Below, one piece after another: positions 23,460-59,586 of a stretch of 64,000 nucleotides of DNA. Where the stretch lies: assembly GCF_000023985.1 (NCBI RefSeq), contig NC_013156.1, positions 1,228,363 to 1,292,362 of the forward strand, given 5' to 3'. The DNA comes from Methanocaldococcus fervens AG86 (GTDB lineage Archaea > AGJL01 > Methanococci > Methanococcales > Methanocaldococcaceae). The position numbers and the translations under genes were made by a program. A model generated the notes under the pieces. It had not been told where the DNA came from. It did not search any database and saw only the letters and a program-made list of their open reading frames with translations. The first letter of the stretch is position 1, and every line of letters begins with the position of its first letter.

Positions 23460-25019
23460 ATGAAACCAACAGCTTATTTCTGCATGGAATTTGCAATTCA
23501 CCAACCACTAAAAACCTACGCTGGGGGATTGGGATTTTTAGCAGGTTCACATTTTAGGGCTGCTAAAAGGTTAAATCAACCTCTTGTGGGGGTTTCCATT
23601 CTATGGAGTTATGGGTATTACGATCAAGTAAGGGATAGAGAAGGAAGGATGAAAGTTGAATACATAAGGAAATATTACGATTTTTTAGAAGATATTAATT
23701 TAAAAGTCCCAGTTACAATAAATAACAATACTGTCTGGGTTAAGGCTTATAAATTGGAAGAAGATGTTTTTGGAACATGTCCAATCTATTTTTTAACTAC
23801 TGATATCCCAGAGAATGATGATTTTTCAAGAACTATAACTCATAACTTATATGATGCAAACAACATACTCCACATAGCTCAGCAGATTGTTTTAGGTGTT
23901 GGAGGTTATAAGGTTATAAAAGAATGTGAAAATGTAAAACTCTTTCATATGAACGAGCCCCATCCTCTTCCATTGGTATTTAAATTAATTGAAGATTACG
24001 GTTTAGAGTATACAAGAGAGCACGTTGTTTTCACAACCCATACGCCTCTGCCAGAAGGTAATGAAGTCCAAGATATTAATTTATTGAAATCCATGGGATT
24101 CTTTGGAAACGTTGATGTGAGCTTAGCTGAAAAATTAGGAGGAAATCCATTTAATTATACAGTTTGTGCTTTAAGAACATGTAAAAGAGCTAATGCAGTT
24201 TCTAAAAAGCATAAAGAAGTTTGCGATAAAATGTGGAGTTGGGTTAAAGATAAGTGTGAGATAATAGCTATAACAAACGCTCAAGATAAATATTACTGGC
24301 AAGACCCTGTTATTAGGGAAGCTGCAAAAAAATATGATATAGATGCATTAAGAGAGAGGAAAATGGAGTTAAAAGAGATTTTGTTTGAAGAGGTTGCAGA
24401 TCAAACAGGAAAATTATTTAAAAAAGATAGATTGACGGTTGTTTGGGCAAGGAGATTTACAGCTTATAAGCGGCCCCATATATTGCTTCATGATGAGATG
24501 AGGTTGATAGAGCTATTAAAGAAGAAAAAAATACAGGTTATTTGGGCAGGAAAGCCACATCCTAATGATAGTAACATGATAGCAACATTTAACTGGATTG
24601 TTTCAAAAACAAGGGACATGAAAGGGGCTACAATATTAACTGGCTATGAGTTGAAGTTAAGTAAGATGTTGAAGCAGGGTTCAGATATCTGGCTTAATAC
24701 GCCAAAATTAAACCATGAAGCCTCTGGAACTTCTGGAATGACAGCATCTATGAATGCTTCCATACACATGAGTACCTTAGATGGGTGGCATGTAGAATGG
24801 GCTAAGATGTATCCGGATGATAGCTTTACAATTGGTGATGGAGTTAGAGATGACGATGCCTATGTAGCTAATTGCATCTATAACTTATTAGAAGAGGCTG
24901 CTGACATGTATGATACTGAAAGATGGTGGATGAAAGCCTGCAACTGTGTAAACCATATAGTTGAATACTTTGACGCTGAAAGGATGGCTAAGGAGTATGC
25001 TGAAAAGTTATATAAATGA
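23460..25019 (+). CDS. glgP: Alpha-glucan (glycogen) phosphorylase, GT35
   Basis: Starting at the ATG at 23460 (GGGGGAAATT upstream) the enzyme is 519 residues, the short archaeal form. It has YFCMEFAIHQPLKTYAGGLG, the FTTHTPLPEGNE region, GRK-type VWARRFTAYKRP and the PLP-lysine region LNHEASGTSGMTASMNAS, consistent with the short GT35 subfamily. It releases glucose 1-phosphate from glycogen. It is followed directly by a hairpin repeat that begins two bases before its stop ends. Confidence 0.9.
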   Translation: MKPTAYFCMEFAIHQPLKTYAGGLGFLAGSHFRAAKRLNQPLVGVSILWSYGYYDQVRDREGRMKVEYIRKYYDFLEDINLKVPVTINNNTVWVKAYKLEEDVFGTCPIYFLTTDIPENDDFSRTITHNLYDANNILHIAQQIVLGVGGYKVIKECENVKLFHMNEPHPLPLVFKLIEDYGLEYTREHVVFTTHTPLPEGNEVQDINLLKSMGFFGNVDVSLAEKLGGNPFNYTVCALRTCKRANAVSKKHKEVCDKMWSWVKDKCEIIAITNAQDKYYWQDPVIREAAKKYDIDALRERKMELKEILFEEVADQTGKLFKKDRLTVVWARRFTAYKRPHILLHDEMRLIELLKKKKIQVIWAGKPHPNDSNMIATFNWIVSKTRDMKGATILTGYELKLSKMLKQGSDIWLNTPKLNHEASGTSGMTASMNASIHMSTLDGWHVEWAKMYPDDSFTIGDGVRDDDAYVANCIYNLLEEAADMYDTERWWMKACNCVNHIVEYFDAERMAKEYAEKLYK

Positions 25020-25195
25020 AACTTTAAGAAAGTTGAATGAAAATCATAGATTTTCATAGCTGGAAAGCAGAGCTTTCCATTTCATCAAAGCCTAACATCT
25101 CCTCGCTTACGCTCGGAGGTGTAAATTAGAAAGATTTGGAGATAATATCAAAATTTTATCAAATAGAGGGGCTATGCCCCTATGGAAATAAAATT
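25020..25195. repeat. Multi-hairpin mosaic repeat, 3' of phosphorylase gene
   Basis: The unit starts GAAACTTTAAGAAAGTT at the phosphorylase stop, then has the stems TGAAAATC-ATA-GATTTTCA, GGAAAGC-AGA-GCTTTCC and CCTC-GCTTACGC-GAGG, then a separate core TAGAGGGGCTATGCCCCTA near 25162-25180. The first 110 bases align with the copy at 30.7 kb, including the end GAGGTGTAAATTA. No flanking duplication is seen. The upstream end of the radical SAM open frame (25136-25207) lies in this repeat and is not likely to be translated. Confidence 0.8.
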
Positions 25196-30699: not shown

Positions 30700-30838
30700 C
30701 GAAACTTTAAGAAAGTTAAACAAATCCTACGGATTTGTAGCCAGAAAGCAAAGCTTTCTGTTTCATCAAAGCAAACATCTCTTCACTTACGTTCAGAGGT
30801 GTAAATTAAATTTCAAAATTGGTTGATTTGGTAAAATT
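30700..30838. repeat. Multi-hairpin repeat between PhoU and trmY genes
   Basis: The unit begins GAAACTTTAAGAAAGTT at 30701 and has the stems CAAATCC-TAC-GGATTTG and AGAAAGC-AAA-GCTTTCT, then TCATCAAAGC and CTCTTCACTTACGTTCAGAG, ending in GGTGTAAATTA. It aligns base by base in layout with the 25.0-kb copy, but both central stems differ by paired changes. It is flanked by a 21-bp imperfect duplication (30679-30699 and 30839-30859, 18 matches). Confidence 0.85.
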
Positions 30839-35767: not shown

Positions 35768-36922
35768 ATGGATATAAGGTATAAGTTGGCAAGTTATAGA
35801 ATTTGTTCCCCAGAAGAGACATTTGAAAAAATTCAAGATGCTTTAAAAAAGATACAAACGATAGAGATTGGAAATATACAACATTTAGATAAGTTAGGAA
35901 TTCCAGTTTATTATTTAAAGAGGAGGGTTGTTGTGAATGGAAAAGAAGGGGAAGTTGTGCACTATGGAAAGGGGGCTACTGATATTCAAGCAAAGGTCTC
36001 TGCATGCATGGAGGCAATAGAGAGATTTTCAGCAAGTTATGATGAAGATAAAGTTAAAGAAAAGGCGGATAATCCAATAAATATTGAGGATTTAATATTA
36101 CCACAATATGCGGATAAAAATGTTAAAGAATGGGTTGAAGGGGTTGATATTATTAATGATGAGATTGTTGATGTTCCAGCAGATGCTGTTTTTTATCCCA
36201 CAGAAGGAAAATTGTTTAGGGGGCATACAAACGGTTTGGCTAGTGGAAACACTTTGGATGAGGCAATTTTACATGCTACTTTAGAAATTATAGAGAGGGA
36301 TGCTTGGAGCTTGGCTGATTTATCAAGAAGAATTCCAACAAAAATAAATCCTGAGGATGCAAAAAACCCTCTAATTCATGAATTAATTGAAAAGTTTGAA
36401 AAAGCTGGAGTAGAAGTGATTTTAAAGGATTTAACATCAGAGTTTGAAATTCCAGTGGTTGCCGCTATAAGTGATGATTCAAGCAAAGACCCTCTAATGC
36501 TCTGTGTTGGTGTAGGTTGCCATTTACATCCAGAGATAGCTATTTTAAGAGCTTTAACTGAAGTTGCTCAAAGTAGGGCTTCTCAACTACATGGATTTAG
36601 GAGAGATGCTAAATTGAGGAAAGAATTTACGTCAAAAATTCCTTATGAGAGGTTAAAAAGAATCCACAAGAAGTGGTTTGAATATGAAGAGGAGATAAAT
36701 GTTGCAGAAATGCCAAACAATGCGAGATACGATTTAAAGAAAGATTTGGAGTTTATAAAAGATAAAATCTCTGAATACGGATTTGATAAATTGATATACG
36801 TTAATTTAAATAGGGTTGGAGTTGATGCTGTAAGAGTTATAATTCCTAAAATGGAAGTTTATACAATGGATAGGGATAGGTTATCAAAAAATGCCTTAGA
36901 GAGAGTTAAAAGGAAACTTTAA
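35768..36922 (+). CDS. ycaO: YcaO-type McrA thioamidation protein (methanogenesis marker 1)
   Basis: The 384-residue YcaO protein shows the family ATP-binding glutamates in [21 protein letters not shown] and [10 protein letters not shown]. In methanogens this member thioamidates a glycine in the active site of McrA to make thioglycine. A TfuA partner is not adjacent. The gene is probably cotranscribed with tiaS. The stop at 36922 lies inside the start of a hairpin repeat: the last lysine-leucine codons and stop are part of AAACTTTAAGAAAGTTT. Confidence 0.87.
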
Positions 36923-37022
36923 GAAAGTTTCATCAAAACGGATGCATTAAGGAAGGGCTTTCAGCCCTTCATAATACCTCTTAATTTAAGTGAGGCTGAA
37001 CGTAGTGAAGCCACTCTGGTTA
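36914..37022. repeat. Multi-hairpin repeat between convergent ycaO and nifB
   Basis: It begins with the stem AAACTTT-AAG-AAAGTTT (36915-36931), which overlaps the ycaO stop. Next are TCATCAAAACGGATGCATT, a stem GAAGGGC-TTTCA-GCCCTTC, CCTCTTAATTTAAG and GAGGCTGAACGTAGTGAAGCC, ending ACTCTGG. The second half matches the 46.2-kb copy (opposite strand) and the 49.9-kb copy almost base for base. No target duplication is visible here. Confidence 0.8.
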
Positions 37023-37049
37023 TATTCAATAAAATTAGGATTTTCCTTA

Positions 37050-46004: not shown

Positions 46005-46080
46005 GGGCTCGTGGTCTAGTGGCTATGATGCCGCCCTCACAAGGCGGTGGTCGCGGGTTCGAATCCCGCCGAGCCCACCA
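46005..46080 (+). tRNA. tRNA-Val (CAC)
   Basis: The gene starts GGGCTCG and ends CGAGCCC with discriminator A and an encoded CCA at 46078-46080. The anticodon stem CCGCC/GGCGG encloses CTCACAA, giving CAC, the valine anticodon for GUG. The T arm is GCGGGTTCGAATCCCGC. Length is 76 nt, no intron. Its last 24 bases are repeated in decayed form at 46343-46366 beyond a hairpin repeat. Confidence 0.97.
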
Positions 46081-46366
46081 AATATTTACCTACATAGGAA
46101 CAAAGCTCCTATAAGATGAAATCCTACGGATTTCATTACTCTCCTATTGGCGATTGCTATACTCCAGAGCGGGCTTCACTACGTTCAGCCTCGCTTAAAT
46201 TAAGAGACATTGCCGAGTGTAGCGAGGCAATGCATCCCGGGTATACCAATAGGGCGTAAGCCCTATGGTTTTGATGAAATGGAAAGCTTTGCTTTCCAGC
46301 TAGGAAATCTATGATTTTCATTCAACTTTTACTAAAAGTTTCGTTCGAATCCTCTTGAGTCCACTA
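46081..46366. repeat. Large mosaic multi-hairpin repeat next to tRNA-Val, with decayed tRNA-end copy
   Basis: Read on the minus strand from 46343 the order is: AACTTTT-AGT-AAAAGTT stem, TGAAAATC-based stem, GGAAAGC-AAA-GCTTTCC, core ATAGGGC-TTAC-GCCCTAT, GCATTGCC...GGCAATG, GAGGCTGAACGTAGTGAAGCC, CGCTCTGG, then GAAATCC-GTA-GGATTTC and AGGAGC-TTT-GTTCCT. It is the most complete copy in the window and contains modules otherwise seen separately. At 46343-46366, 18 of 24 bases match the tRNA-Val 3' end; five of six changes are C to T. The stretch 46367-46437 holds no gene. Confidence 0.85.
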
Positions 46367-46437
46367 TATTTACATTATGTAGCTTTTTTATTTGTTTATT
46401 TTTCTTTTTAAAGAGTTTAAATTCGAGGGGTGATTTT

Positions 46438-48840: not shown

Positions 48841-50108
<1,268 letters not shown>

Positions 50109-58606: not shown

Positions 58607-59412
58607 ATAAACTCTTTTAATTTTTCATACAACTCTTTTATTGATTCAGAGACTTTGCTATTACTATCACAAAGTAGAATTTTATTTGCGATTAGCTTTG
58701 GCACGTCTAAATCAAAAGGAATTGAATGGAATATTTTAAACGGATACTGAATGTTGTTCATGCCTTTTTTATTCTCAATAATTAGGCTCTCTACATTAAA
58801 AAATTTTAATGTATCTATTAATCTTAAACAATCATTAACGCTCGATTTTGTTGGCTCAACTATGCAGATGGCTAAATCCACATCTTTAACCGTTGATATT
58901 AAGGGACATCCAATTCCCGGAGGGCCGTCTATAATCTCAACTTCAGCATTATGCTTTTTTGCATGTCTTTTTATATGCTCTATGATATTCCCGCTTCCAC
59001 TTTCTCCAACTTCCAACTCTCCCCAGATTAATGGAAAGCCAACAAAGCCCTCATATATATAGCCACTTTCGCGTTTAATTGGCTCTACTGCGTTAAACTC
59101 GCATATTAACTCACAGGCACCACAACCTTCGCATAGTATTGGATTTATTTTAAAATCTTCTATAGCATCAAATTGGCATATTTCTAAGCATTTTCCACAT
59201 TTTATACAGTTATTGTTTATTTTATACACTTCCCTGTAAATAATTTCCAACAATCTTTTATCTTTAACATCAAACATTAAATTAAAGTTTGGAGCATCAA
59301 CATCACAATCCAATGCCACTATATTAAAATCTTTTGAAAATAATTTGGCGAGAGATGTTGAGATAGACGATTTCCCAACTCCTCCCTTTCCTGATACGAC
59401 TGCTATCTTCAT
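58603..59412 (-). CDS. MinD/Mrp-type ATPase with inserted two-cluster ferredoxin domain
   Basis: The 269-residue protein starts MKIAVVSGKGGVGKSSIS (deviant Walker A). It contains an insertion with CIKCGKCLEICQF and CEGCGACELICEF (about 68-107), enough for two [4Fe-4S] clusters, then IIDGPPGIGCPLIST (switch II). Such proteins pair up next to NifX-like proteins and are believed to handle metal clusters or redox proteins. The start lies in a duplicated stretch beside a repeat, and once overlapped the stop of the upstream gene. Confidence 0.87.
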   Translation of the reverse strand: MKIAVVSGKGGVGKSSISTSLAKLFSKDFNIVALDCDVDAPNFNLMFDVKDKRLLEIIYREVYKINNNCIKCGKCLEICQFDAIEDFKINPILCEGCGACELICEFNAVEPIKRESGYIYEGFVGFPLIWGELEVGESGSGNIIEHIKRHAKKHNAEVEIIDGPPGIGCPLISTVKDVDLAICIVEPTKSSVNDCLRLIDTLKFFNVESLIIENKKGMNNIQYPFKIFHSIPFDLDVPKLIANKILLCDSNSKVSESIKELYEKLKEFI

Positions 59413-59586
59413 CCTATCCCCAATTTAAATATATGTGAAGAGGCATTGCTGAGCGTAGCGAAGCAATGCATCCTGTTTTGATGAAACAGAAAGCTTTGCT
59501 TTCTGGCTATGAAAACTCGGAGAGTTTTCATTTAACTTTTTCTAAAAGTTTCCCTGAGATGATTGCTATCTTCATCCTATCCCCAA
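59391..59586. repeat. Multi-hairpin repeat with 33-bp target duplication between the MinD genes
   Basis: Positions 59391-59423 and 59554-59586 match at 30 of 33 bases, including 23 consecutive. The right copy holds a leftover start of the downstream gene (minus strand MKIAIISGK, compared with the true MKIAVVSGK). Between the copies lie stems GAAAACTC-TCC-GAGTTTTC, AGAAAGC-AAA-GCTTTCT and GCATTGC...GCAATGC. It is the clearest insertion in the window. Confidence 0.9.

Follow-up and report, generated by a model that had tools for sequence, protein, structure and literature searches.

The sequence that follows tRNA-Val(CAC) in the window, i.e. in the whole stretch of 64,000 nucleotides of Methanocaldococcus fervens AG86 DNA that was analysed, is very likely a short, non-coding, hairpin-structured and non-autonomous insertion element, and the tRNA tails on its two flanks are very likely the halves of a long target-site duplication. 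Dispersed copies, empty sites in relatives and a target-site duplication, by which a non-autonomous insertion element in the broad sense is recognised, were all found. The features of the locus and the other copies of the family in the window are listed in Table 1.

Table 1. Features of the tRNA-Val(CAC) locus and further family copies in the window
Feature	Position	Strand	Evidence
tRNA-Val(CAC), intact	46005..46080	+	ARAGORN; Rfam RF00005
Probable target-site duplication, proximal half: T-loop, acceptor strand, CCA, trailer AAATATTTAC	46057..46089	+	Flank local alignment
Hairpin-rich non-coding element, ~253 bp, several hairpin modules (composite)	46090..46342	+	
Two-hairpin core in the tRNA-Val element	46198..46268	+	Model R1, 87.9 bits
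Probable target-site duplication, distal decayed half ('tRNA tail')	46343..46373	+	Alignment; orthologous tail copies
Family copy, duplication not detected	25018..25128	+	
Family copy, diverged duplication of ~42-45 bp on both sides	30700..30809	+	
Family copy, duplication not detected	36913..37023	+	
Composite family copy	49837..50074	+	
Family copy with 37-bp duplication on its flanks	59437..59552	+	

The duplicated tail at tRNA-Val(CAC)

The tRNA gene was recognised over its whole length by ARAGORN and at positions 46005-46077 by Rfam, and its part from the T-loop to the CCA forms the first half of the duplication. The original prediction had reported that the 24 bases at 46057-46080 (GTTCGAATCCCGCCGAGCCCACCA) match those at 46343-46366 (GTTCGAATCCTCTTGAGTCCACTA) at 18 positions, that five of the six differences are C to T (the sixth is G to C) and that TATTTAC directly follows both copies; all of these observations were reproduced from the sequence. 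The duplication was found to extend slightly beyond the 24 bases first noted, i.e. to about 46057-46089 and about 46343-46373. No integrase gene lies between the two tails, the interval consisting of the non-coding repeat alone. This element, whose clustered span is 46089-46343, is matched in part at 55 further sites of the 1.5-Mb genome, and its predicted fold surpassed those of all 200 shuffled sequences (z = -4.5). Taken by itself, the window tail copy stands out only modestly from shuffled downstream DNA (z = 4.9), and in a stricter tail-only test it scores 16, while chance gets to 18-20. Because the copy is too decayed for the strict cut, it was accepted by orthology. As judged from these sequence comparisons, the window tail is one old half of a target-site duplication.

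Occupied and empty sites at tRNA genes

At the tRNA-Val(CAC) genes of three relatives (G001, G003 and G010) repeat sequence is likewise followed by a copy of the tail, which reads TTTGAATCTCGTCGAGCCCACCA in G001 and is more decayed in G003 and G010. Neither repeat nor tail was found at this tRNA in G004, G005, G006, G009, G012 and G013. The site in G004 and G005 reads CCCACCATTTTTAACATAATTTTTTAGAGTGG, and since the sequence after CCCACC in these two genomes is the same as that past the tail copy of G010, the empty site is directly visible.

In six Methanocaldococcus genomes, 209 tRNA genes were inspected together with their flanks. The repeat was found no more than 50 nt downstream of 21 of them, and in the single upstream case this same repeat separates two tRNAs that belong to a cluster. 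It was present at eleven tRNA genes, those for Val(CAC), Val(GAC), Ile, Gly, Met (assigned from sequence), Leu, Cys, Ala, Arg, Thr and Pro. Under a strict test, a strong copy of the tRNA's own tail accompanied the repeat at 11 of the 21 repeat-bearing tRNAs and was found at none of the 188 tRNAs without a repeat; comparisons with the tails of non-cognate tRNAs yielded no strong copy either (0/816). The remaining ten repeat-linked tRNAs (10/21) showed no strong tail copy in this test, which counts against the insertion reading.

Duplications at tRNA sites run from the T-loop through the CCA into the T-rich trailer, some 30 bp in total, and leave the tRNA intact. One boundary lies in the T-loop (around positions 54-57) at every tRNA with a surviving distal copy, and the other is variable within the T-rich trailer. 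Two element types occur at Val(CAC) and likewise at Val(GAC) with the same T-loop boundary, indicating that the boundary is a property of the target. The trailer variants at Val(GAC) differ between G003 and G006 and are common to both halves within each genome. Orthologues with empty sites, in which the sequence runs straight on, were found at the Ile, Cys and Met tRNAs; the Ile tRNA carries the repeat in G000, G003, G006 and G013 and lacks it in G001.

These comparisons uphold the original prediction that the repeat had been inserted behind the tRNA, leaving a second tail, and that the hairpin family is linked to tRNA 3' ends; the check it had suggested at other Methanocaldococcus tRNA genes gave the tail counts reported above. 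The finding it had named as a refutation, a tail copy without a repeat as would be left by an ancient tandem tRNA, did not turn up at any of the 188 repeat-less tRNAs. Decay by C-to-T changes, which had also been proposed, describes the window copy and does not describe several other tRNAs, where the tail copy is near perfect.

The distal tails differ in what they have kept. The invariant C56 of the T-loop is replaced by T in nearly every one of them, whichever end of the element adjoins (distal-tail C56 loci L134, L151, L156, L165, L166, L170, L173, L186, L193, L197 and L221), and this was counted against the insertion reading; the window copy is the only distal tail in which C56 is kept. Positions 57-59 of the distal tails are altered more often than the acceptor strand. 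The Ile and Thr tRNA genes of G000 (L126 and L130) have kept the repeat and are missing the distal tail, which looks like the result of a deletion between short T runs.

Duplications at protein genes and CRISPR arrays

Seventy-three copies were read with their flanks and compared with permuted flanks. The mean similarity between the two flanks was 44.8, against 19.8 after permutation, and it exceeded the permuted 95% limit in 32/73 copies and the 99% limit in 19/73. More than half of the copies thus show no duplication above the 95% limit, which counts against the insertion reading. The distal copy of a visible duplication starts, in most cases, 0-5 nt past the CCCTATGG end of the element, and the opposite side of the element is ragged. 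At sites other than tRNAs and CRISPR arrays the duplications measure from about 20 to more than 75 bp. Many of the duplicated sites are ends of protein genes, and duplications were also found at copies in a second genus. In the window, the copy at 59437-59552 lies around the stop/start overlap of two genes, and because 59387-59423 is repeated at 59550-59586 across this overlap, each gene keeps its end.

Several further observations were made on copies at gene ends. In minimal copies, the AAGAGG side of the two-hairpin core is the one on which the intact gene is found, regardless of gene direction; of the non-tRNA duplication sites, 14 were left-only and none right-only, and a wider set gave 15 against 4. 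In L077 and L260 the insertion took place a few codons before the stop codon, so that the element now encodes the C-terminus of the gene product, and the original gene ending survives in the distal duplication. The same gene ends are occupied in more than one species, and even across the two genera (L077 in G013 and L333 in G035; further shared gene-end copies are L252, L270, L279 and L288), which marks some ends as hot spots or else as sites of old, shared occupation. A copy directly upstream of cas1 was seen in two genomes (L287 in G003; L256 with L319 in G011), and at L287 a duplication of about 62 bp seemingly takes in the cas1 ribosome-binding site together with the terminus of the gene that precedes cas1.

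In G004, G005 and G009 many copies lie in or beside CRISPR arrays (L083, L084, L096, L247, L264-L269, L273-L275, L281-L282, L296-L300 and L350). The CCCTATGG end adjoins the start of a repeat at these sites, and on the opposite side stand the initial 25 nt of a repeat. As the CRISPR-site copies of the three genomes share their flanks, they probably go back to few original events; some of the duplicated CRISPR-repeat flanks are copies made with the array and not independent events, and this counts against the insertion reading.

Structure and distribution of the family

The family centres on a genus of methanogenic archaea that includes Methanocaldococcus jannaschii, the first archaeon with a sequenced genome. 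Among 14 Methanocaldococcus genomes, a covariance model of the two-hairpin core (R1), built from 16 copies, detected 8-52 copies each in 11, a single copy in one and none in two. Two genomes of one other genus contained 6 and 43 copies, and no copies were detected by R1 in 20 genomes of three further genera. Among named genomes, an exact-pattern scan returned only records of Methanocaldococcus, Methanocaldococcaceae and 'Methanococci'.

The core is about 75 bp long and codes for nothing; its copies have no terminal inverted repeats, and their ends differ. In 80 copies (66 of them distinct), 98.7% of the cells were paired and 16 of the 21 pairs had changed on both sides, values that no shuffle attained. 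In one orientation G-U pairs outnumbered A-C pairs by 30 to 8, an excess that is possibly inflated by the model and by the relatedness of the copies; together with the covariation, this leans towards selection acting on an RNA. No Rfam family corresponds to the element: in the window only tRNAs exceeded the gathering score, and around one copy the only Rfam matches were sub-threshold CRISPR repeats outside the element. No description of this hairpin family was found in the literature searched. Hairpin and palindrome counts for M. bathoardescens and M. vulcanius are tabulated in a palindrome survey (PMC12306157), in which no description of the family was found.

Discussion

The original prediction had likened the two tails to attL and attR. 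In elements that are integrated into tRNA genes, attL and attR repeat an att site that belongs to the element and serves one tRNA. The present elements resemble these in their position at tRNA 3' ends, in carrying a second tRNA 3' end on the distal side of the insert and in having one boundary in the T-loop, so that the repeat might be regarded as the remnant or satellite of an element recombined by an integrase that has since been lost or acts in trans. We consider this very improbable, as every target, tRNA or not, contributes its own sequence: many different tRNAs are each followed by a duplicate of their own tail, the duplicated stretch is of variable length and takes in trailer DNA, and long and variable duplications of the same kind flank copies at the ends of protein genes. 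A single element-borne sequence common to every site was not found. The exact core pattern was not found in viral contigs, and a plasmid search with one copy and its flanks gave no match. Since the tRNA's own tail and trailer are duplicated, and duplications occur at protein-gene ends as well, the tail copy is more readily explained as a target-site duplication than by recombination at an element-borne attachment site. An old tandem tRNA-Val, with its 5' part lost or replaced by the repeat, would account for a copy that shows only the 3' part of the tRNA; this origin is extremely improbable, given that the same layout, starting in the T-loop and including the trailer, recurs at many different tRNA genes, that no repeat-less tRNA among the 188 has a tail copy and that relatives have clean empty sites. 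An origin of the tail from mature tRNA, by way of cDNA, was rejected, since the duplicated sequence continues past the CCA into the genomic trailer.

If the element is an insertion element, as we favour, the means of its mobilisation has to be sought among several candidates. Like SINEs and other target-primed retroposons, it combines a structured non-coding sequence with variable target duplications and one fixed end, and element RNA might have been copied into a nicked target to give a fixed 3' end at CCCTATGG and a ragged 5' side. The placing of the distal copy just past CCCTATGG, the conserved structure and the G-U excess agree with such a route. We nevertheless regard it as unlikely, since no reverse transcriptase (RVT_1, PF00078) was found in the 14 Methanocaldococcus genomes, the only RVT_1 match of the order is in G033, a genome without copies, no poly(A)-like tail is seen and the G-U excess may be inflated. 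An RNA intermediate, if there is one, would be expected to be stable, to measure some 75 nt and to end in CCCUAUGG. Just as unlikely, in our estimate, is transposition of DNA by a DDE-type transposase acting in trans, for which IS1549 and IS1634 (IS1634 family) offer a precedent with target duplications of variable length, 8-514 bp (PMC2266710), in the same range as those observed here. Those elements are, however, 1.5-2 kb long and have a transposase and terminal inverted repeats, whereas the two-hairpin core has neither, and no DDE_Tnp_1 (PF01609) was detected at E 0.001 in G000, G005, G006 and G009, each of which contains at least 20 copies. Integration by Cas1 at T-loops and CRISPR repeats, either as in CRISPR adaptation or by a casposase-like activity, seems rather improbable. 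All 11 element-rich Methanocaldococcus genomes have Cas1, as do the two genomes of the second genus that bear the element, and it is missing from G008, which has no copies, and from G012, which has one; the element adjoins the repeat start at CRISPR sites, and casposons favour the 3' ends of archaeal tRNA genes and duplicate part of the tRNA (PMC6977970). Casposon duplications, however, are 14-15 bp long and contain, in the example given, only the last 4 bp of the tRNA (PMC6977970), as opposed to 20 to more than 75 bp and no fixed length here. Casposons moreover encode Cas1 and have terminal inverted repeats, whereas the hairpin element is non-coding; Cas1 also occurs in element-free genomes, G002 included, and only the first 25 nt of the CRISPR repeat are duplicated, in arrays that seem to have been copied from one event. 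The family is similar to REP/BIME palindromes and to MITEs in being made up of small non-coding hairpins with composite copies and tens of copies per genome. Terminal inverted repeats and short duplications of fixed length characterise MITEs; here the ends of the copies differ and the duplications range from 20 to more than 75 bp. To our knowledge, no long target duplications are known for REP elements, and mobilisation of a REP by a Y1 (HUH) transposase was rejected, as Y1_Tnp (PF01797) occurs in just 2/14 Methanocaldococcus genomes.

For the insertion that we favour, the following course may be envisaged. One strand would be cut in the T-loop and the other about 20-75 nt downstream, after which the element would be joined in and the gaps filled. 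The halves of the duplication could later be equalised by gene conversion, as sites shared between species suggest, or they could recombine with each other and remove the element precisely. At the window copy equalisation would have stopped, leaving the tail to decay. The mobilising enzyme would act in trans; none of the enzyme families tested (RVT_1, DDE_Tnp_1, Y1_Tnp and Cas1) matches the distribution of the element, which counts against the insertion reading. RVT_1 is missing from the genus and DDE_Tnp_1 and Y1_Tnp from most carriers, and Cas1 is not specific to them. Only tentatively do we propose that the structured elements insert by an undescribed process, in which a cut in the T-loop or gene end and a second cut 20-75 nt away would precede the joining of the element through its CCCTATGG end; the element RNA might serve as a template, or the CRISPR integrase of the cell might take part. 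Such a process would be at work in genomes where no reverse transcriptase was detected and where a DDE_Tnp_1 or Y1 transposase is often missing too.

The presence of a second tRNA tail does not suffice to prove that an integrase was involved. The family combines long and variable target duplications with a preference for tRNA T-loops and has no evident enzyme, and identification of this enzyme would reveal either a new insertion mechanism or a second role of a known enzyme. The arrangement also suggests how compact genomes may tolerate insertions at the ends of genes and tRNAs, the end being rebuilt in the same event.
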